Origin: Lentinus brumalis
Lineage: Eukaryota > Basidiomycota > Agaricomycetes > Polyporales > Polyporaceae
Direction: 5' to 3'
DNA length: 64,000 nt
Assembly: GCA_001792895.1 (NCBI GenBank)
Contig: MARA01000001.1
Span: 2,604,001-2,668,000, forward strand
The first letter of the stretch is position 1. Each line of letters begins with the position of its first letter. The notes below the pieces were generated by a model. The model was not told the origin of the DNA, searched no databases, and saw only the letters and a program-made list of their open reading frames with translations. The translations under genes were made by a program, and so were the position numbers. This document shows positions 25,920 to 39,787 of the stretch, piece by piece.

Positions 25920-26709
25920 GTCATGCGCGCTTGTCGTCGTCGGTCACGCAGTGCGGCAGTTGTCCGAGAGGAAGTACAGTTGTCTTACGCATCCCTCCGC
26001 AGCTTGCACACTTCTCCACCCATGCGTCACGCCAACGGTACCGACTACGACACCTATCTTCCGCAGGCAGACAGACATCTGTCGCACTCCTCGGTAAGTT
26101 CCTGACTGCTTCAGCTGTGCGACGCATATGCGACACTTACCGCCAGCATACCCAGCGACGTCTTCCGCAGTTCTTCGACAACTGACGCACCACTGTAGCG
26201 ATGCGGCACGGAGTCCGACACTTATCTTCCGCAGGCAGACATACGTCTGTCGCACCCCTCGGTAAGTGTCTGACTGCTTCAGCTGTGCGCCGCATATGCG
26301 ATACTTACCTGCAGGACATCTTCCGCACCCTTTGACGACCGCCGCACTTCTGCAGCGGTGCGATACCGACTGCGACAGTCATGTCTCGCAGCCAGACAGA
26401 CGTCTGTCGCACCCCTCGGTAAGTGTCTGACTGCTTCAGCCGCGAGCCGCATATGTGACACTTACCTTGAGCATACCCAGGCACATCTTCCGCATCCTTG
26501 ACGCACTCCTGCAGTGATGCGGTACCGAGTCCGACACTTATGTTTCGCAGGCAGACAGACATCTGTCGCACCCTTCGGTAAGTGTCGGCCTGCTTCAGCT
26601 GCGCGCCGCATATGCGATACTTAGTACTTACCTTCAGCATACTCCACAGTAAGTTTCTGACTGCTTCAGCAGCGCCCCGCGATACTTCCTCCAGCATACC
26701 CAGGACATC
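25920..26709. repeat. Satellite array, about 160-bp units
   Basis: Landmark GTAAGTGTCTGACTGCTTCAG recurs at about 26094, 26262, 26419 and 26578 (spacings 168, 157 and 159 bp), with a truncated copy at 26649. Each unit also contains GCATATGCGATACTTACC, CATCTTCCGCA and GGCAGACAGACATCTGTCGCAC. The same family resumes at 39788 and 42.0 kb, showing that the element at 26717-39780 lies inside it. Confidence 0.85.
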
Positions 26710-26716
26710 TTCTGCG
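26710..26716. repeat. Left target-site duplication TTCTGCG
   Basis: Seven bases identical to 39781-39787 on the other side of the element. If the terminal C of the left inverted repeat is counted as target, the duplication is eight bases (TTCTGCGC). Confidence 0.8.
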
Positions 26717-27048
26717 CAGCAGGTGTTGTAGTTCTGATATGATACGAATAGGTAGTTTACCCAGCCCTCATTGTAATACGAATAGGCAGGGGACGTGATA
26801 TATCATAACGAATAGCCTGTTTGAGTAGATAGGAATCCAGGGCATAAGCGGGGGCACCGGCACCTCGGCACGCTACCAAATGCGGTAACCTGCAGCATTT
26901 TCGAGCGCCTGCGTGCAGGAAATGCGCGCGCGGGCGCCTCAGCTGCCAAATGCGGCCGGTATACCATCCATCCGGCGCCTGTGCTTGATTGGGCAGTGTA
27001 CCTCCCATATTGGGACGCTTGCGCTCGTCTCTGTGCCCATTGGCTGTA
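26717..27048 (+). repeat. Left terminal inverted repeat
   Basis: Matches the reverse complement of 39448-39780, nearly identically for about 270 bp and then more diverged. Three ATACGAATAGG-like direct copies fall in the first ~100 bp, plausible transposase-binding sites. Confidence 0.9.
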
Positions 27049-27197
27049 TTCCTCGTTTCTGCGGAAGTTAATGACCTTATAGATTGCTTGTCAAGCTTGC
27101 TGCAGTGCAGTCCATAAGAAAACCTAGTTAAATCTGTCATTAACGCGGTAACCATGTGTTATACCCAACATAGGGCGACATATGGACCCAATACAGG

Positions 27198-30100
27198 TCA
27201 CAGAACATCTATTAAATCGTCGGGAGACTCATACATAGAAGCTATCTCCTCCTCAGCCTCAGCAGGCTCCTCGATGACGCCTGCCTCCAAGTCCTCCACC
27301 TTCCTCCACTCCTCGCATTCCTCCCATTTCGCCCCTTTCGTGCTACGGGCTTCGTCAATACATACAAGACGAAACACAGCACGCATGCGACGGCGAATGC
27401 GGGCTTGCTTAAGAGCGTACGCGACCATCCCTTCATAGATGGCCGGATCTTGGTGAGTGCAGGTCTTCGCATGGGCCCTCCACCGCTCCTCGTCGTAAGA
27501 GTGCGTCGCTAGGACACGGCGCATCTCCTCCAGTAGGAGGACGATCTCCTCCTTCCAGCGCATGGTGCGTGCTCGCGACTTGAACCATTCGACCTTCAGC
27601 GAGTCGTTCCTGTCCTCGGAGTCATCCAAGTCGGAGGAACGCCAGATCCACGAGATTTTGCGGCGTCCTTCGGCAGGGATCTCCTTGTCGCTCCTGCTAC
27701 GTTTCCGCTTCTTCTTCTCTGTCTCAGGGTCGTCGTCTTGAATGCCACGGACATCCTCGTCGTTCAGGACACGCAGCTCCTTCTCCCAATCGCCGTGGCC
27801 AGAGAGAGCGAACTTTGCGCGACGCGCAAGACGATACTTGGTAACTGCGCGTCCCTTACGCACGTCCTGCGTCGTGATCTCGCCACGGGCACGTGTGTTC
27901 GGGCCTTGATGTCGAACCTGGGTCTTCTTGTACAAGTAGAGGTGGTCGAGGGTGTGCAGCTTGTTGCGAATGTTTTGCAGGGCGTCGCGACACTGCGACT
28001 CGCGCAACCGAGCCTCAATCTCCTGCAAACGACACGAACAGACCGCGTCTCGGCGTGACGGACTGATCTCGGAGGGCAGTCCAAGGCGGACAGTCTCTAT
28101 GAGCTCGGTGTCCGTCCGGCACGATGGATCTTCTGCGAGAAGGGCAACGGCCCGCGGCATGTAGATCGCTTGAAGATCACGGAACTTCTGCATGCGGCGG
28201 CGCAGCGCAGTGCGGCGTTCAAACAGGCCTGCGATCCTGCTTGAGGTCGCTTTCTTCGCGTCTTCAAGGAGGCGCGTTCTAGGCACATATCAGCCCTGAA
28301 GCCGCGCGAATGTCTCGAATGGGTACGTACTTGACATCCTCTAACTCGAGTCCCATGGCCACGAACCCGACCGGGCTCACATCGTGCAGCGCCATGAAGC
28401 CTGGCAGCGCACTGGCGACCTGCTCCTCTTCTGAGAGAGCGCGCAGCGTCTCGGCTTCCGTCGGACCTAAGGAACATAGCGTAGATGAGCACAAATTAGA
28501 ATGCAGAATATACCCGCACTGGCATACCTTGCGAGAGAACAACATATGGATCGTCATGATTGAATGGGTCTGCTTCCCATACCTTGATTTCTTCTTCCCA
28601 TGCTACGATGTCGTAGTTCTTCTGGAGTGACTTCGTGAGCTCGTCGAAGATGACGCGCTGCTCCGTGTACGCCTCTCGAGCCGCACGAAGCTTCTTGCGA
28701 AGCATCCAGGCTGTGAATGTTAGGCTCAGCATGCTGAACGAAGCGTGGAGCGTTGAATGGATGTCACTTACGCATATTCACCGTCTTACGCCAATTGGTG
28801 AACCCGCATGTATCGTCCATATAGCCTTGTCGCGTTCCTGGTCCCATCTGCTTCGTCGCATTGGCGATGCCTTGCACCTCCCACCAGTTCCTCTCCGGTC
28901 CTTCCCCATCTGTCCGTCCGACCCCGACGCGGTAGTTGAGGGAATAGGGGGAATGTCCTTCGCGCTTGTGGGCGCGGAAATGGAGCTTCGGGATGACGTA
29001 CTTGATAGAGCCTTCTGGGATCTCGATGCGAAGATGCGGCGGGAACTTTGCGATGCGCTCGAGGAGACCCTGGGACCACTGACATGCTATGTCGTAGCTG
29101 ACGAGCTTGTGAAGTACGAGGTACTCTCTGATCGCGCAGACGAATATATAGTCCATATTAACGTACCTGTGAAGAGGGTTAGAGCTTGCGCAGAGATCAA
29201 GGCTGAGCATGGACGTACTTCTCGCCTTTTTGAATATCCCCCATACCCGACGCGAGCCAGAACTCATGTCGGGCACAAGTCACAGCTCCAACTCCGGTGG
29301 CAGCGTAGCCACGAGAGAACTTCGTGTTCGCATGGTCGACAGCTGACAGCCCGGTGCATGACGACATCTGTGGAAGTGGTACGACGCCTGTAAACCTCGC
29401 AGGCATGCTTGATGCTTGATGCGGGCACGCACCTCCTTCTGATCGCCATAGGCAGACAAGAGCTCCCTGTATCCCGTATCTTCGACAAAATATGCCCAAC
29501 CACTGCCCAGGATAGGGTCCTTCTGAACGTCTGAGACGTCGCGACGCTTCAGCCTGAAGCATGCATCAAGCGCGACCGTCATCATGTAGATGTACCTACA
29601 AGAAGAGTATGAGTGTGCAATTATATGTCGAACTTCGTTCGGACTTACTTGAGCTCGTCGGATATTGTCTCCCAGTTGTCAGGCAGATTGACACCCTGGT
29701 GCGGGCAGGCAGGGCATCGGAGGGCGCACTCCCCGGGTCTGGTACCCGCTACACCGCTTGGATCGTGGCCTCGACCGGCGCGCTTCAGTAACTTCATATG
29801 CCGCCATTGGGCTACGATGCGCATGAAGGTCTTGTACCGGTCTTGAGCTTGCGCGGTCCCGGTGTTGTCGGTGAGCCGTTCCAAAGACAAGTAGTAGTCG
29901 TACATCGATATTTTCCCCTGCAAGCTCTGGACATGATAATGTTCCAAGAGCTCGAAGGAGAAGGTGGTGTTGGGCTCGCAATCCGTTGCTGGCCATAGGT
30001 CGTACCGCAGGAGTTGCTGGACAACGTCTCCTGCTTGGCCGGCCTTGTCGCACCCGCAGAAGTCGACTGAGACCACATGACGACCGTTGACGTGGATGAC

Positions 30101-30932
30101 GCTGAAGTCGGAGCGGCAAGGGATAGGATTGGAGCATGCGCTACGGTCATGCGTGTGGCCAAGCTGGATACGCAGGCCGAGATCCTTCAGTGTCGTGTCT
30201 TCAAACGTGAGACCCGTCCATCTCTGAAGTTGAAATGCTTAGAACCCTTGTCAAGATAGTCCGTGGAAGCAGCGCACCTTGATCCGATGATACGGACACT
30301 CTTGATGCTTGCGGACCATGCACGTCTCGCAGCAGAGCGGGCCGGGAGCACACCCTGAGCAACGAAACAGGGCAGGCTTTGCCGTCGCGGGGTCCGGGCA
30401 ATCAAGGCAGCGGTCGTGCGTCGCATAACCTCTTCCATCGCGCCGCAGCATCTCCTGCAGGTACAGGTCGCGCTTCGGGATGAAAAGTTTCATGGGCTCG
30501 TCCTGCAAAGTCGGCAATGAATTAACCATATGAGCGCATTCTAGACTCATCTGATGGACTCACCGAACTCGTGTATCGCTTCGCGCGTTCCCCGTCCTCT
30601 TCTGTGAACTCCCTCACGTTCGCCTCTCCTTCCTCCGCTGCAGGAACCAGGAACGAGTCCCACTCATCATCAAGCCCGAGGTTGGCTGTGGGGCGTGCGT
30701 CGGGGTCAGGCGTTCCAGCAGCGGGTGTGTGGGTGCGAGAGTTACTGGGAAGTGAGAAGGATTCACGCAAAATTCTCCGCCTGTCGTCGGACAGGTTGTC
30801 CACGGAAAACGTTGGCGCATTTCTGTTCGTTGCCGGGCGACCAAGGACCTCCGACGCCGTAACGTTGAAGTCCGCTGTCAGAGTTGGGTCGACGGCGGCG
30901 GCGCGTGCTCGTTTTGTACCGCGTCTTGACAT
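27198..30932 (-). CDS. KDZ (Kyakuja-Dileera-Zisupton) transposase, intact frame
   Basis: Nine exons on the minus strand (30932-30564, 30502-30278, 30223-29649, 29595-29433, 29367-29219, 29166-28772, 28710-28528, 28466-28331 and 28278-27198) give 1,091 aa without stops. After a disordered N-terminus comes a CxC2-type Cys cluster (DRCLDCPDP, CSGCAPGPLCCETCMVRKH), then HVVSVDFCGC with a second Cys region. The transposase core shows the landmarks VALDACFRLKRR, GWAYFVEDTGY, ATGVGAVTCARHEF, LVSYDIACQW and GRTDGEGPERNWW, which supply likely acidic catalytic residues. The long C-terminal domain is helical, charged and basic (KKKRKRSRSDKE). Family members are cut-and-paste transposases of eukaryotes, with large expansions in basidiomycetes. 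The acceptor of exon 5 was chosen to give the usual KE-MSSCTG continuity. The gene shares a 180-bp promoter region with the dioxygenase. Confidence 0.9.
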
Positions 30933-31112
30933 CTTCGCAGATAGAAGCTTGCAGACAGACGCTACTTACCAGACTGGGAGAGAAGCCCGGGGACTGTCAC
31001 CGGTCTCGTGCTTGTGACAGGACGCTCCGTCCTCTATGTATATCTCACCTTCTGCTTCGAACTTGCTCCCCGCTCCTGCGCACACACCCGTGCCGCTGGC
31101 CCTCTCCCCACA
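30933..31112. promoter_or_regulatory. Bidirectional promoter of transposase and dioxygenase
   Basis: The start codons of the two divergent genes are 180 bp apart. A TATATCTCACC stretch lies at about 31037-31047 towards the dioxygenase side. Coupled expression is inferred from spacing. Confidence 0.5.
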
Positions 31113-33111
31113 ATGCCCAAAGGTACGTTTTTCACCCGAGGGAATGCACCGTCGAAGTCCTGCGCGATTCGCCCCTGGACCCCTGGACTGTCACAGGCGC
31201 ATTCCCTCTTAGATGTTTGAGCGCCCACGCCCCTCGCTGACCTACCGCCCTTCCTCTGCCAGGATTCCTCATCCCATCGCTCTCGCCCTTTCGCAAGGTA
31301 CGCAATAGTCTCCTTTCTCTCCGCAACCTTCGCTTGGGTAATCCTGTCGCAATGCTGCAGACTCGGACGGGCCTTGGCTTCTCCCCATGGACCGCCGACA
31401 TCGGCACTCCTATCCATGCCCCAGACGACTTCGACCTCGAGGCCCGCATCAAGTCGATACTCAGTGGCGACCTCGAGGACAAGGCGCTCGATGCCAGTCT
31501 TCCTGCCCAACCTGAAGCTCTGGATCAACCCCGCACCGACGCAACGCAGGCTCACGATCCGGATGAGCCTATCCTCGAGGAGCCTGAGACCATGGACGCT
31601 TCGGTGCCGTCCCTCGACCACCTATTCGACGGGTTCGATCGAGTCGATGATCCCTCGAGGTTGCGTCCCTCGGTCAACGACGGCACTCAGCCTCAGTCGA
31701 CAACCAAGAGGAAGACGCATGCTCGCAAGCACGACCAAGAGCATCGGAAACAGCAGCGCCAGCGCCGCGCGCTTCCTGGGGTCCTTGGAGCATCATCCAA
31801 GCCTCTGAAGCAGGCAGCGCTCAAGAAACTCCTCACCGCTGTCGCGCTTCACACCAACACGGACACCGAGGCTGCAATTGCACGCGACGACGCTGCATTC
31901 CCTGCTCGCCCCGACGTCACCCCTGTCGAGACGCACCTCTCCCTCGACATGAACGATGTCCCAGTCGCGTCGAGTGCGTTCATAGGCCGACACATCAAGC
32001 AGACCCCAGCAGATCGTGCCCGCGTGGACGTGGAGGAATTGAGGAAGGGAACTGGTTGGAGATACAAGGACTGGGACGGCAAGTAAGTTCCAATACCGTG
32101 TTCTCGCCTCCTCGTCACCTGATGACTGACTTCAACGCTGTCAGACAAACCATTCCAGTTCTTGACAAGCACGGCAGGGTCGTTACACTGCTCTCGGGTC
32201 GACCCAACGATCCGCGCTGGCTCGAGGACGTCAACGACGAACTCGATGCTGCGTTTGCTGTTGCACGCGAGGCATATCAGCCTCCGTCGAACCCGAAGGA
32301 GAACAGGCGCGGTGACTTCGAGACGACCAACCGCGGTATCTCGATTGGTGGAGGACAGCCAGTGAGTCACGTCCTTTCTTCCTCTGCTTCAACGTCGTCA
32401 TACTCTATACAGCGCCCTGGCAATCTCGCCCTCAACCCACAGAATCGCGCTCTTTGGGATGCGCTACTCAAGCTCAAGGCCTTACGTCGTGCTGCAAACT
32501 TCGCAAACAGTACGCACTGTCGCTCTCTCTTTGTCGTGGCCTCTTCTCAGTCCGACATAGCGTCCATGCGCGTGTTCGCCCCCGACATGTTCGAGCTTTA
32601 CGATACCACACTGCACGACATATGCAAGCACGACCCCTCTCTGAGACGTAACTACGACGACAACGTATTTGCCTCGGCTTCCATCAATTTCGGCCCACGC
32701 GCGGCGGCATACATACATACCGACCACCTCAACCTTGCGTACGGATGGTGCGCCATTACGGCGATAGGGAAGTTTGATCCCCAGCGTGGAGGGCACCTGA
32801 TCTTGTGGGACCTCCGCTTGATCATCGAGTTCCCGCCTGGAAGCACCATTCTAATTCCCTCCGCGATCCTGCGGCATTCAAACGCCCCTCTTGCTGACGA
32901 GGCCAACGAGAGACGTAGCGCTTTCCTGCAGTACTCCGCAGGAGGACTATTCCGTTGGGTTGAGTGCGAGCATCAGTCGCAGAAATCTTTCTTCGCAGCT
33001 GGTCGCACGTACTCCCAGAGTGGCGAAGAGCGTTGGCGGCGTGGGGTAGGCATGTTCAGCGACTGGAATGAGCTCAAGAGGCGTATACGCCCGCAGGCGT
33101 CGTCTACATAG
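31113..33111 (+). CDS. TET/JBP-like 2-oxoglutarate/Fe(II) dioxygenase
   Basis: Exons 31113-31122, 31263-32082, 32145-32361, 32413-32509 and 32561-33111 give 564 aa. A further in-frame 66-bp intron at 31283-31348 may exist. The N-terminal half is charged and basic (KRKTHARKHDQEHRKQQRQRR), typical of nucleic-acid binding. The C-terminal half is the double-stranded beta-helix fold of the TET/JBP clade: YIHTDHLN gives the HxD iron ligands (His codon 32716, Asp codon 32722), followed by GGHLILWDL and IEFPPGSTILIPSAILRHSN with the distal His (32875). RRSAFLQYSAGGLFRW supplies the Arg (32911-32916) expected to bind 2-oxoglutarate. TET/JBP enzymes oxidise 5-methylcytosine or thymine. Fungal members are lineage-expanded and often linked to KDZ elements. 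All key residues are present, so the enzyme is probably active. The substrate base cannot be told from sequence. Confidence 0.88.
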
Positions 33112-33522
33112 ATACAATTATCCTGTTTTGTATGTGTGTCTGTCTACAGCTCTTGAATGTCATATTATGTTGTCGCATTTGTGCATGCACTCGGATGTGT
33201 AGTGGCATGTGAGCTTGCATGCCACGCATGCGCGCGAGCGCGCACATGCACGAGTAAGACGCGTCTTACGCTAGGCTGCCACAGCTGAGCATAAGACGCT
33301 CTGCCGCAGTCAGACGGCTTTTGCGCCCTCCTCCTTTCCACTACCCACAACTGTCGGACTAGTTTTCGGCTCACCTCACATCCTGTCTCCACCTCTCTGC
33401 TCGCCGCTTACAGTACGACTCTTCTCTTACGAGTGGTCCCTCAGATACTTATCCTCAAGTTCTTTACCGGTGGGCAGATCACACCGGGCCACTCGACGCC
33501 GCGCTGCTCGTCTCGAAGCTCC
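33112..33522. other. Intra-element spacer
   Basis: Holds a short GCATGCACTCGGATG/GCATGTGAGCTTGCATGC palindrome-rich patch at about 33183-33250. No gene. Confidence 0.4.
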
Positions 33523-34266
33523 ATGCCTCGTGCTCCCAGACGTCGCCGAGTGCGTACTCCGCAGGAAGAAGCAAGGGCCAAGCAACTGCGCAAGGAGCGT
33601 AACCATCGGCACTATGTGAAAAAAAAAACGTACGTCCTACCCGTACTCACCCTCGATGAAGACGCATATTCTAATACTGACAGCTGCCAATCTTCCTGAC
33701 CTCAGCAGGGCCACCGGTACTCAGCAATCTGCCATGAGTACTACACAGCAGCCAGGAGAAGACGTCCATGCTGTTAGCAACCCCACTCAGGTCTACTCCG
33801 ACGTTCAAACAGACAATACGACCGTCTCGGCATCCCTTCCCTCGGACTTGTCCTTCAATTGGCAGGCTGTTGGGTGAGTCAAATACCGAATATTACACGC
33901 AGCTAGTCGCTCATCCATATGCTGCGCTGCATTAGGGGTCCTCTCCCAATCCCGTGCACTTCGACACCCTCGCACGCCTCGCGACTTGCCGGCCTCAATG
34001 AGGCATTGCTCGAGTGGGGTTATATGGACGACCGCGCAGCATATTCAAGAAGTTTAGACAAGCAGTTGCGCCGAGCGCGCCGAGCCGACGAAGACACTCG
34101 CACTGCCTGGGTTAACGAGATGGACGAATGGCTTGCTGATGGGGATAGGATGGTGGAGGAACTCCACGACATTGCGCTGCATGACTTGAGTTCTACGACC
34201 TTATCCGTGATTTTCCAGGTACTGTACATGATCGCCGCAGTTGAGGCTCGACTCTACTTTGTGTAA
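33523..34266 (+). CDS. Small element-borne protein with basic N-terminus
   Basis: Exons 33523-33629, 33706-33873 and 33936-34266 encode 201 aa. The first exon is very basic (PRAPRRRRVRTPQEEARAKQ then LRKERNHRHYVKKK) and resembles a DNA-contacting basic region. It ends in a run of ten A residues just before the donor. The middle exon is Gln/Ser/Thr-rich. The last exon is helical, with RARRADEDTRTAWVNEMDEW and a hydrophobic C-terminus. A bZIP-like or accessory DNA-binding role is possible, but leucine spacing is not convincing. The alternative acceptor at 33684 would break frame, so the one at 33705 was used. Same strand as the dioxygenase, 411 bp downstream of it. Confidence 0.6.
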
Positions 34267-35296
34267 ACCAATGCTATCCAATCCACACCGCACGGTGTAT
34301 CAGTGATTATAGAGCATGGTCGCTGTACAATCTCAAAGCCAGAGCCGCAACATGAAGCGAGGTGCAAAGACAATTCGCGAAAAGAACTAGTACAAGACGA
34401 TGTATTCATGCTGCTCATACTACTGATACAGGGCTCGTGAGTTGAAGAGTTATAGATGCATCTCGAATGGCGCACTGTGACCGCGAACGGACAAACCGCC
34501 CTTGAGTCTCGAACAGGCCGACATTATGTCCATGACGACGACGCGACCCACCCATCGGTGTCGGATCGATCTTCCGCATGAATCCGCCATGGGAGCCAAA
34601 CACGTATGCCGCCGCAGCGAATGAGATCTTCTGTATTGCAGTCGACGGCGGATCCGGCCATGTACCGAGACTCAGCCAAGGATCTGAGTATGTAAGTATT
34701 CTGATTCCTGACGCAGCTCGACCACGTTCGCGATGCTGCTGCTCCTGGTTCAAGGCTTGACCTTCAGGAGGCACTGTGGAAGCCACTCGGTCAGTATACG
34801 TGCATTTCGTAGTCTGATGAATCGAAGTGTTGAGCCTGGAACGACGCACCTGCCAGTAGCGCATCGGGCGGACCATGCGGTCACCATATGATCCCTTATG
34901 TTCTGTATTCAATCGGTGTATGCTGGGTCCTACTGCCGGAGCGACAACCTTTACGCACTGAGCCAAGAGGAGGAACCGATCAGCATTTTGTCACATTGCG
35001 ACTGGACAGGACGTCGGGTGGCGAGAATAGCCGGCGCGTGTTCGGAGTCATGGTCGGGATGCCGGCGGACAGGAGCGCGCGAGATTCCCGCCGCCCACTG
35101 TGACTCGTCTTTGAGGTTGAGTGTAGCTTGTTGTATCTGGTCAGCAGGCGAGACGCTAGTACTCTAGTGGTCGTTTGAAGAGGACGGGATGGCGGAGGAC
35201 GGCGGACTGTCGCAGAGCAAGTGCATGCTCTGAAGTAAACATTCTCGGTTACGATCGGCTATTCGTGATGTCACGCGTTCGTCACGCGTTCGTGAC
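34267..35296. other. Intra-element spacer with a possible minus-strand frame
   Basis: About 1 kb without a confident gene. A 183-codon frame on the minus strand (34966-34415) contains protein-like stretches (YVFGSHGGFMRKIDPTPMGG) but lacks supporting splice structure or codon bias. Confidence 0.35.
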
Positions 35297-38200
35297 ATGC
35301 CCGAGGTCACTCCTAAAGGCTTGCCTGAGACTCGTGGGTCCTCCGAACGTCCGCGCATACCTGTGACGCTCCTGATCTCCACTGTCCTCGTCATGCCAGC
35401 CCCCGCAGTCGACCTCGAGTTTATTCAAGTCGAGCCTTCCTTCCCACCGGTCCAGTCCGATGCGGCGCGCAAGCGCAAGAACAAGAAGTCGAAGAAAAAG
35501 AAGAAGGGCGGGAAACCCGGCAAGAAGAGCCATTTCGTTGGGGTGCGCGAAGAATTCCTGCACCGGTTTCTCATCCCCTTCGTCGCACTCAAGGGAGCTG
35601 CTCGAGCCTCTCAAAACACATTCTGGCAACAACTATTCGCTCTCTTCTGGCTCACATTCCCCTACTGGTACGCCCTCGACGAGGACCCGGCTCTGAACCC
35701 TCGTCCCGCCCCCGAGGAGACCCCGGAGGAGCTAGCCGAGAAGGGCAAGATTATAGCTGATACGCAGAAGGTGCGCCATACGACTGCTCACGTCAGAAGT
35801 GTTGTGCTCATTCGTATCCTACAGCGCATCAAGGCCCACCTACGCTACCGTCGTGCGCTCCACATTCGCCAGACGAAGAACCCGTGGGACGGGTTTTTCC
35901 CGGACGTCAACGCTCAATTGAACCCATCTCCTGCACCCCGACAGCTCGCACTATGGCAACTCTACATGTCGAAGAAGACCGACGATATCGACGCAGAGTA
36001 CGAGGCCCGCTGGCCCTCCGCCGGTCTCGATAAAGACCACAAGTTCGCGTTTCGCTGCAAGATAGCCAGAGAGCTCTTGGAGCGCGAGCCGGCGGAGTAC
36101 AAGGCTGAATTGAAGGCAGAAGTCGATCAGATGCACGAGGACGACTTGCAAGTCGAGCAGGACATGCGCGACGCCATGGATGTGCCGGTAGAACTTGACA
36201 TTCAAGTCCAGTACGCTCTTCTGATGCTTCTATGTCTGTGCTATGCTAACACGTCTATTAGGGCTAGAGAAACCATCGCCGGCATCGTGCAACCTCTTCT
36301 GGAGGCTGTGAGGAAGCGCACTGGATTCTATATCACGATGCTTTGCGGCATCCCCTTGGTAGAAGGCTCGCGTGAATTTCAGCTGAAAGTGTAAGTGTTG
36401 CTTCCTCGATCGTCATTCTCCTTTGTTCTTTGTTCCTCGTTCCTCGCTCGTTGATCGCTCTTTGTGCTCGGTGCCAGTCTCCTATCCTTCCCGCTGTCTG
36501 ATACTTACTGTCCATCTCAGTATCACCGCTGGCAAGTCGTCCGGACCCCTACCTTTGCCATGGCATCTAGCCGAGCAGGCGGAGTTCAAAACCGATGTCA
36601 TGGGCTCGTTCACGCGGTTCTTGACATTGACCAAAGGTACGTTTCTCACTCGAAGTTTCTAAGCTTATATGTATCCCTCATGCGACTCCAGAGTACGAGG
36701 AGCGGCTTCAGAAGCTCGGAATCACGCCCAACTCCAACCCCGCCGCTGCGAGCTCTAACGCCACCACGTCCTTGCCCTTGTCCCCTTCCACAACACCCAC
36801 GACAGCCCCATCCCCAACCGAGCAGCCCGCCGGAGGTACCAGCAAGAAGAAGCCAGCACGCTCGAGGAAGGGCCCTGCGGCGACTGTTGCTGCTACGTCC
36901 AAGGCCACCGCGTCGAAGGGCAAGTCCAAGGCTAGGCGCACACGCAAGGACAACACGTCTGGTTCTGAGTACTCAGGGTCCGAATCCGAGTCGGAATCGG
37001 ACTCTGATTCCTCGTCTGAATCGTCCGACTCAGACAGCGACTCCGAGTCTGAGGACGATAGTACCCCTCGGGAGAACCTCATCACCTACGACGATCTCCC
37101 CGAGGATGCTGTCGTCCCTTCTCTAGAGTCCCTCAAACTCAGCGAGCACATCGTCGCCTTCCACAACACGCTGAATCCGGAGGAGCAGCGCATCCGGCGG
37201 TACTGGTGGGGAACGTACGACACGTTCGGCCGTACTCACATGGTGCCCACGCTGGTCGCGAAGGAAGCAGAGCAGAGGGCTAAGCGTGGAGCCACCGGTG
37301 CCGCTCTGCCCTCAACATCGTCGTCACTCCAGCAACCCCGCGTATCCCCTCGGACTTCTCCAGCAGCGTCGCCACTCTCCTCTGCGCAACCCCAGCCTCA
37401 GTCTACAGCCCGATCTGGAACGGCACATGTCCTCGAGGGTTCTGCGTCGCCCGGCAGCCCTGCGCCCTCATCGATGTCCAATGTCACGATGCTGCGCGGT
37501 TCGGGTACCGCACCATTTCCTGAGGCGCCAAACAACATGCTGCCCGACAACACTGCGAACACCACGCTGCCCGACGATGCTGCGACCCGGAGCCCGTCCG
37601 ACGGCGCTGCCAACACGACGCCGTCCGATGCAGCGAGCGCGACGCCGCCTCACTCTGTGGACAAGTCCGCGCGTGGGCCTGTTCGCGTTCCTGCTGGCAG
37701 TCAGGACAACACGTTCGCCGGTCCTCGCCCTGAGGACATCATCATCGTGAACGAGGACGGGTGGCCAGCGTGGCTTCGAGATGGATTCAACTATCTTGAG
37801 GCTCAGCAGCTCGGTCGGATTTTCATGCAAGCTGTCGAGTGGTGGACTGTACTGGAACGTTCGTACAACTGGGAGAAGAATGTGAGTTACTCTTCTGTTA
37901 TCGTGTGCTATCGTCGCAATCGCGCTAACACAGTGTTCACTATCCAGAAGAAGGGCTTCAGCGTTGATCATCGCCCTCCCCAGCTCGAGCATTGGATGCG
38001 CGTCCTGCGACGAAACTACTCAAAGGCTCCTGAGATCAAGAACGACGTCGAGTACGCGAGCTCGTGGTGGAAGTGGTGGGGTGGACTTCAGCCCGAGTGG
38101 CGTGAGCGCGACTCTGAAGGTCGTCCGATCGTCGGAGGCACGGGAGATTGGGAGGGCCTTTGCAAGCCCGGACAGAACGGCTTCATGATGGTCTTGTTGT

Positions 38201-38440
38201 CCCTCAGCTGGTGGAAGGCCGTCGCGTCGGAGGCCACACTGTCTCTCTGGGAGGACGCCGTCAAGGATGTCGCATGGGTGATTATGGAGATGGCGAAGGG
38301 TTCTATGACGCAGGCGAAGGGTTCAAAGTGCGTGCACCCCCTCTCTCATTATCCGCTTTGTCTAACTACCTTCCAGGAAACACGCTCGGTCACAGGAAGA
38401 AGATTCCGATGGCAGATCGAAGCGTGCACGCCGTTCGTGA
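35297..38440 (+). CDS. Large unrecognised element-borne protein with acidic/basic spacer
   Basis: Exons 35297-35770, 35825-36210, 36262-36390, 36521-36636, 36692-37881, 37948-38327 and 38377-38440 join in frame to 912 aa. A Lys-rich block (KRKNKKSKKKKKGGK) is followed by a helical domain with FLHRFLIPFVALKG, FWQQLFALFWLTFPYWY and RIKAHLRYRRALHIRQTKNPW. A central disordered region has Ser/Glu/Asp runs (SESESESDSDSSSESSDSDS) flanked by basic KPARSRKGP stretches. The C-terminal domain is Trp-rich (WPAWLRDGFNYLEAQQLG, WWKWWGGLQPEWRE, WEGLCKPGQNGFMMVLLSLS). It ends in a basic nuclear-localisation-like RSKRARRS. This N-domain/linker/Trp-rich layout is familiar from multicopy hypothetical proteins of Agaricomycetes, which fits transposon cargo, but I know no function. 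The intron at 35771-35824 is in frame and could be retained. Confidence 0.75.
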
Positions 38441-39447
38441 CTACAAAATTGAAGTCCCTAGCGAAGCATGCCCTCTCAAGGCTCAGGTACGCATCCCTAC
38501 GCATACATCGGCCATTGTTCGAGTCTTTCAATATCCGCATCATCCCACCTTGCATCCCGATCACGCCTCAAGCATCCTTCCCCTCCTCATTGTCCCTGCT
38601 CGTTCAATGTTCTCCCCTGGTCGTTCATCTTCGTCCCCTGCTTGCTTCGCATTTGAAGGTCCCTGCTTAGTTGTCCACATCACTCTTCGTACATCTGAAT
38701 CAACACCCCTCATTCCTTCGTCTTCACTACGCATCCCTTCTGCTCCTTCTGCTCCTTCGTCTACGCCGCTACTCGTACATCTGAATCTTCTCCCCCTCCC
38801 CTTCATTTTCGCTGCTCGTTCCTCCTGCTTGGTTGTCTTTCCCGCTACTCGTCATATGAGTGTTCGACCTTCGCCCCTTTTATTGATACATTTGCAATCA
38901 ACATTGCGTGGGCCAGCATGAACAGTCTTCTCGTTGAGACTGTTTCTGTGTTCCCGTTCGTCATCCATGTCCTCGATTTGTTTCGCCTTGATTGTAGTAA
39001 GTAGGATGCTTGTCATCAGTGCACTTGGCTTGAGAGAATGAGTGATGAGACTTGGCAGACCAACAGTGTGACTTTCCGATCTTGAGGGCCTCATTTGTTG
39101 TACTTAAAGACCACTTCTGGCGGTAAGTGTTGTTATCTTATGTAATCAAAGCACTGTAAGTAAAAGGACCACGTATCAAGTGAGTCGTCTAGCATCAAGG
39201 ATAGTGCTCTCTCTCTATATATCTCTCACATTCGAGGCTCTGATTGATACCCTATAATTTGCACAACCAGTCTCTAGTTTCAAGTACAGAGTAAATAGCC
39301 AGGTAGTGCCTTGTAAGCTTCAAAAAAGTCACCTATGTGCTGGCTATTATGATCAGTGCCGCAGCTTGGACAACAAAAATGTTGAGAGCACAAGGACAGC
39401 AATACCCGAGGTACACTTGATGTCTATCTATGCCTCAATTGCGTGGC
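38441..39447. other. Subterminal low-complexity region of the element
   Basis: No gene. 38570-38880 is an imperfect pyrimidine-rich tandem (CATCCCTTCTGCTCCTTC, TCGTACATCTGAATC). 39120-39300 is relatively AT-rich with GTAAGTG-like repeats and a CTCTCTCTATATATCTC tract. Confidence 0.5.
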
Positions 39448-39780
39448 TACAGCCACCTGCAAAGAGACGGCAGTGTGAGCATCCCGATTTGGGAGGTACA
39501 CTGCCCAATCAAGCACAGGCGCCGGATGGATGGTATACCGGCCGCATTTGGCAGCTGAGGCGCCCGCGCGCGCATTTCCTGCACGCTGGCGCTCAAAAAT
39601 GCTGCAGGTTACCGCATTTGGGAGCGTGCCGAGGTGCCGGTGCCCCCGCTTATGCCCTGTATTCCTATCTACTCAAACAGGCTATTCGTTATGATATATC
39701 ACGTCCCCTGCCTATTCGTATTACAATGAGGGCTGGGTAAACTACCTATTCGTATTATATCATGACTGCTACACCTAGTG
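39448..39780 (-). repeat. Right terminal inverted repeat
   Basis: Reverse complement of 26717-27048. The outermost 30 bp align without gaps to the left end at 23 of 30 positions, followed by a much better conserved inner region. Confidence 0.9.
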
Positions 39781-39787
39781 TTCTGCG
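39781..39787. repeat. Right target-site duplication TTCTGCG
   Basis: Copy of 26710-26716, directly abutting the right inverted repeat. Confidence 0.8.

Follow-up and report, generated by a model that had tools for sequence, protein, structure and literature searches.

A stretch of 64,000 nucleotides from the basidiomycete Lentinus brumalis (contig MARA01000001.1 of assembly GCA_001792895.1, positions 2,604,001 to 2,668,000; this whole stretch is called the window below, and its own numbering is used) carries a 13,064-bp transposon of the KDZ superfamily, in which a transposase gene stands next to a gene for a TET/JBP-fold dioxygenase. Our analysis suggests a long-standing KDZ lineage with a dioxygenase of its own, which most likely oxidizes 5-methylcytosine (5mC) on silenced copies of the element and so enables gene expression and the use of the ends; we give this reading a probability of about one half. 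The features central to it are the following.

26717..39780, no strand: whole element, 13,064 bp with CA..TG ends; the boundary is common to its copies
27198..30932, minus strand: KDZ transposase, 1,091 amino acids, 9 exons; PF18758 at residues 393-618 and PF18803 at residues 210-320
31113..33111, plus strand: TET/JBP-fold 2-oxoglutarate dioxygenase, 564 amino acids, 5 exons; placed by splicing, motif and the fold of a relative, the first exon being the least sure

All gene models were built from the sequence by GT-AG splicing, without RNA evidence, and their frames are open throughout. An earlier note on this DNA had described an uninterrupted KDZ transposase of 1,091 amino acids; the nine-exon model has the same length and matches the Pfam KDZ model in full (PF18758, 183.7 bits with a cut-off of 26.6, model positions 1-217, i.e. 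all 217), as well as CxC2, the CxC cysteine cluster associated with KDZ (PF18803, 130.9 bits, cut-off 27). The HxD motif (here HTD), the distal His and the 2-oxoglutarate-binding Arg, on which the note had based a TET/JBP-like dioxygenase, are all present in the 564-residue model. The lineage of this dioxygenase is denoted D2, a label coined in this analysis.

The association of D2 genes with KDZ transposases extends through the genome (contigs are denoted by C-numbers). Among the matches listed, to which all cluster counts in this text refer, there are at least 92 KDZ clusters, 43 D2 clusters and 29 clusters of the Pfam family PF12851, neighbouring pieces of the same gene being left out; one locus, C80:180877-181371, is counted in both oxidase lists. 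Of the 92 KDZ clusters, 23 have a D2 gene within 8 kb and 17 others have an oxidase of the AG type (the clade of CcTET from Coprinopsis cinerea) within this distance; both types are present at none and neither at 52. Conversely, 24 of the 43 D2 clusters and 17 of the 29 PF12851 clusters are found in the approximately 2.8% of the genome that is this close to KDZ, near-identical copies inflating these proximity counts. Since the same lineage accompanies 23 of 92 KDZ clusters, D2 is not a stray host gene; a host gene outside the repeats in sister strains was what the earlier note had named as fatal to its proposal. The 23 KDZ-D2 pairs are arranged in three layouts (8 divergent, 10 same-strand upstream, 5 same-strand downstream), which track the clades as far as layout and clade are known. 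As a partner for the PF12851 genes away from KDZ, Plavaka transposons were considered and rejected: only one of 12 clusters (C61:499616, at about 7 kb) has a Plavaka hit within 8 kb, so there is no general link.

Transposase and oxidase also appear to have descended together. In the transposase tree (48 rows, i.e. 51 minus L043, L054 and L060, each with fewer than 150 columns; midpoint root, with a long-branch warning), the nine AG-linked rows form a single clade (100/100). For the 13 D2-linked rows, four changes are required, three of them forced by well-supported branches. The window row falls on the 34-row side of the midpoint root, together with the AG-linked rows. The oxidase tree covers 23 of the 43 D2 clusters, among them C35c, of which only an exon end is available, two rows with a stop, and C104c, labelled unlinked though about 4 kb from a KDZ cluster; it yields groups matching the transposase groups, with a weakly resolved backbone. 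Distances between transposases correlate with those between oxidases (Mantel r 0.79, p 0.0001, 14 loci including L043; 0.80 and 0.81 with 13 and 11 loci, respectively). Moreover, HxD, Asn, Cys and the distal His are retained in 13 of the 14 KDZ-linked D2 rows, the other being a fragment, and Arg is likewise found in 13. For the catalytic exon, omega (the ratio of nonsynonymous to synonymous substitution rates) ranges from 0.035 to 0.22 in the 8 computable of 11 pairs, with synonymous divergence dS above 1.5 in six of the eight, and only four of the pairs are between KDZ-linked genes (0.048, 0.05, 0.071 and 0.216). From these values, the catalytic exon looks to be under purifying selection.

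The window protein and its oxidase domain have no match to PF12851 in the Pfam scan, and a Protein Data Bank (PDB) sequence search gave three matches at chance level (E 1.2 to 2.2). Only 11 of 56 relatives match PF12851 at E up to 0.01, and one D2 gene of the same genome reaches 28.4 bits, under the cut-off of 34.9. The D2 family comprises 499 proteins at E up to 1e-3. The structure model of the closest relative, P0001, which was compared among the best 1000 chains from Foldseek, has its best matches in CcTET, NgTET1 and TET2, each of which oxidizes 5mC in DNA; judged via this model, the window dioxygenase has the TET-type fold, in keeping with the TET/JBP-like dioxygenase of the earlier note, even though it has no Pfam match.

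Among the 56 relatives, the catalytic residues are nearly invariant (His in 56, Asp in 55, distal His in 56, Arg in 55). The pocket differs from that of the AG type, having the form HxDxxN.....C in 55 of the 56 and HxDxxG.....D in all eight AG loci examined; the window protein and all 56 relatives have Asn at His+5 and Cys at His+11. Compared to CcTET (PDB 8jkk, 7w5p, 7vpn), the window protein has Asn for Gly331, Cys for Asp337 and Ala for Arg393, and the profile alignment of D2 with the CcTET lineage is weak (E 8.4e-4, probability 24%). The AG-type hallmark, Gly or Ser at 331 with Asp at 337, is absent from the window protein and from 56 of 56 relatives, and the PE-type hallmark HxE is replaced by HTD in the window protein. 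Compared to human TET2 and NgTET1, with about 12-13% identity, Thr1393/Ser238 correspond to Cys and His1904/His297 to Ala.

According to the proposed mechanism, the transposase would act on the long terminal inverted repeats (TIRs), presumably by cut-and-paste, and the host would lay 5mC on the element, silencing its copies. The D2 oxidase would remove or alter this 5mC, upon which the genes of the element could be expressed, its ends used and its mobility maintained. In this way, the element may bring along its own means of countering gene silencing. Kojima 2025 (PMC12730594) proposes an anti-silencing role for transposon-borne TET enzymes, stated there as not experimentally validated. The host has two C5 DNA methyltransferase loci over the cut-off (PF00145; C35:1150390-1150875 and C71:725431-725604). 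In Laccaria and Coprinopsis, 5-hydroxymethylcytosine and 5-formylcytosine occur in transposable elements and at TET genes, as described in PMC8889193. In TET2, Asn1387 holds 5mC (PMC11040006), and the D2 Asn at His+5 is in the same place.

Several observations weigh against this proposal. In both TET2 and CcTET, the O2 atom of 5mC is contacted by a His or Arg at Arg+8 (PMC11040006); the D2 pocket has neither residue there and has Cys at His+11, so recognition of 5mC is not assured. According to PMC8889193, only 4 of 46 Laccaria TET genes are detectably expressed, and oxidized cytosine is found mainly in non-expressed genes. Finally, the ratio of observed to expected CpG, taken as a trace of methylation, gives no signal in the element (1.058, the flanks having 1.07 and 1.105) or in short KDZ pieces (medians 1.07 beside D2, 0.97 beside AG-type genes and 1.11 beside neither, from 11, 9 and 20 pieces, respectively).

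The pocket also bears on the alternative that D2 acts on another substrate or yields another product: 5-methylcytosine in RNA, thymine, N6-methyladenine (6mA), or 5mC converted to a different modification, as by CMD1. We regard this as a tentative possibility, since the P0001 model fits CcTET, NgTET1 and TET2 better than CMD1 among the best 1000 Foldseek chains, and all 56 relatives carry at His+5 the Asn by which 5mC is conventionally contacted and which is said to block 6mA (PMC11040006). A wider and speculative extension is that the KDZ transposons of Agaricomycetes might be split by base-modification chemistry, one clade having CcTET-type 5mC/6mA oxidases and others the widespread D2, whose near-invariant pocket of Asn, Cys and a small residue would give a substrate or product unseen in characterized TETs; selection would have favoured it for reversing one particular silencing mark of the host.

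The stable co-inheritance of oxidase with transposase and the divergent layout in the clade of the window would also be expected if the oxidase were directly part of transposition, e.g. by placing oxidized-base marks on the ends or target sites, to be read by the transposase. This is doubtful, as no link has been found between the oxidase and the element ends, and for 52 of the 92 KDZ clusters no oxidase of either type lies within 8 kb, although some of these copies may be dead and some partners may have been missed. Because of these 52 clusters, KDZ transposition seems not to need an oxidase in general. It is rather unlikely that the oxidase acts genome-wide on the host, by a broad loss of silencing or control of host genes, and not on its own element: the conserved gene order inside the elements and the retention of an own oxidase in each clade agree with selection acting on the element as a unit, even though oxidized cytosine is also seen at retrotransposons in Coprinopsis and Laccaria (PMC8889193) and Kojima suggests that these enzymes may act without target specificity (PMC12730594). 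A captured passenger without a role for the element is very improbable and, like a host gene, is largely rejected by the proximity to KDZ, the kept catalytic residues, the low omega and the Mantel correlation, even given that KDZ hits are missing from the 8 kb around 19 of the 43 D2 clusters (one of these, on C39, being a cut copy of this very element).

The boundaries of the element are as follows.

26710..26716, no strand: left 7-bp target site duplication TTCTGCG, from flank comparison
26717..27034, plus strand: left TIR, about 318 bp, from repeat alignment; three WACGAATAG and two CCAAATGCGG motifs
39463..39780, minus strand: right TIR, about 318 bp, from repeat alignment
39781..39787, no strand: right 7-bp target site duplication TTCTGCG, from flank comparison

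The comparison of copies recovers the same boundary, 26717-39780, that the earlier note had given for a 13-kb element, and the target duplication it mentioned is the 7-bp TTCTGCG on both sides. Its figure of about 332 bp for the inverted repeats is fair: the ungapped match covers 299 nt at 96% (26721-27019 and 39478-39776), the gapped one 318 nt at 94%, and the likeness fades only beyond about 320-330 nt. The element starts with CAGCAGGTGT at its 5' end, and the reverse complement of its right end with CACTAGGTGT. Each TIR contains WACGAATAG three times and CCAAATGCGG twice. In the whole window these motifs have 7 and 4 matches (0.36 and 0.09 expected), all except one inside the TIRs, and they could be transposase-binding sites.

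Further copies with the same ends, for which the earlier note suggested looking, were found in the genome (53.4 Mb searched). The TIR search gave ten matches, seven of them full-length or nearly so and three weak and partial at 73%; the seven ends correspond to at least four insertions (window, C122, C60 with C21, and C39). The C122 copy is complete and 100% identical across 13,064 bp, which places the observation beyond chance. One insertion is spread over the contigs C60 and C21, both of which carry the duplication GACCACC. The C39 copy is truncated, and only its right flank is known, as the contig ends within the element. Other copies carry the same contents up to the contig limits, and none of the ten TIR matches has the same ends with different contents, such as would have spoken against a single element. 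Two other insertions have GATGAGC and GACCACC, respectively, on both sides, and the duplication is 7 bp at three insertions.

In BLAST comparisons, the copies have zero mismatches across all aligned stretches. Sites without the element are found elsewhere in the genome: the joined flanks of C122 match continuously, at approximately 100%, at four other sites, those of C60/C21 at two (398 of 400 bases), and those of the window copy at one paralogous site (91% over query 7-280, spanning the junction at 200). Since the copies are free of substitutions and the empty sites match across the junctions, the element moved recently and precisely, in agreement with the recent insertion of an intact copy supposed before. 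Segmental duplication was rejected, because the copies cease to resemble the window beyond the ends of the element (for C39, at the one flank known) and empty sites exist elsewhere. The element is likely autonomous, judging from its intact genes.

Some particulars of these loci deserve mention. At C60:3008468-3011317 (L026), small indels, most likely assembly errors, are the only differences from the window copy and are confined to the final 2.4 kb of the contig. The C60/C21 insertion (C21:4334-4540, C60:2999592-2999791) lies inside a repeat present on many contigs, with telomere-like GGTTAGGGTTAGGG in the right flank, and its site is perhaps subtelomeric. The left flank of the window copy (26036-26464) belongs to a family of repeats of approximately 105 bp, with relatives on C43 and C82. 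The three weak TIR matches are 97 bp long (C134:13032-13125, C101:56239-56332, C88:67955-68048) and are possibly ends of a related family; C88 and C101 also have D2 genes, 23-27 kb from these matches.

The linkage of TET/JBP genes with KDZ elements was taken by the earlier note as established. Iyer in 2014 is said to have described TET/JBP expansions in basidiomycetes in which these genes and further proteins are linked to KDZ transposases. Elements of this kind are indeed in print: Kojima 2025 (PMC12730594) describes TET-bearing Kyakuja elements from Agaricomycetes, flanked by 7-bp duplications and ending in CA..TG. Two Laccaria families among them have no TIRs, and the AG-type enzymes retain Asp337. 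The window element resembles these Kyakuja elements in joining a KDZ-type transposase and a TET/JBP gene in one element, in its 7-bp duplication (seen also in a sister element at C35:647484-660335, CATGATG) and in its CA..TG termini. Unlike the two Laccaria families as described there, it has TIRs of about 318 bp, a non-AG oxidase and two extra genes. On sequence grounds it is a KDZ-superfamily DNA transposon which we call Kyakuja-like rather than Kyakuja because of its 318-bp TIR; the lack of TIRs describes two families and is not a definition of the group. Zisupton and one Dileera family have 8-bp duplications according to PMC12730594, in contrast to the 7 bp at three insertions here. Relative to the text descriptions in open-licence PubMed Central, it is thus a variant of a published kind of transposon, set apart by its TIRs, by an oxidase without the hallmarks of the AG and PE types, and by the two additional genes.

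Within one genome, a delimited element with substitution-free copies and empty sites can be set against KDZ elements that have no oxidase, which makes the role of transposon-borne TET enzymes testable. The element also draws attention to a large TET-fold family (the 499 proteins above) with a pocket unlike that of the sole fungal TET of known biochemistry. A prediction follows within this genome: AG-type enzymes would handle 5mC and 6mA, while D2-type enzymes should not take 6mA, since conventional TETs with a side chain at this position are said to clash with it (PMC11040006).

The two further genes, whose intactness had been noted, have open frames of 200 and 915 amino acids:

33523..34266, plus strand: accessory gene g3, 200 amino acids, 3 exons; from splicing and relatives
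35393..38440, plus strand: accessory gene g4, 915 amino acids, 5 exons, with basic ends; from splicing and relatives

The order is a minus-strand transposase followed divergently by D2 oxidase, g3 and g4. The sister element on C35 repeats this set of four genes and its order, with a 150-bp TIR at 80% and CA..TG ends, and these four genes are likewise found in this order on C115. From their basic stretches, g3 and g4 may be nuclear proteins aiding the transposase or the oxidase. The database relatives found for g4 number 12 and all belong to Polyporus, Trametes, Lenzites and Cubamyces. The Polyporus arcularius proteins nearest to the oxidase and to g4 are both on contig entries of length 8,874. 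For Trametes pubescens, two relatives are on contig entries of length 14,386 and have nearly adjacent locus tags. Both findings are consistent with the genes moving together.

For g3, two database relatives were found; its relatives in the same genome occur at KDZ-D2 loci and also at C1:174505, next to a TET-like gene that is not near KDZ. At this locus (L033, C1:171500-178500) and at C13:1037079-1039034, a TET-like gene adjoins a g3 relative with 50-55% similarity to the window g3, and it seems that g3 is common to KDZ-D2 elements and another TET-bearing setting. The TET-like gene of this setting has no KDZ cluster within 8 kb; it matches PF12851 weakly and has the pocket HxDxxD, like NgTET1 with its Asp234.

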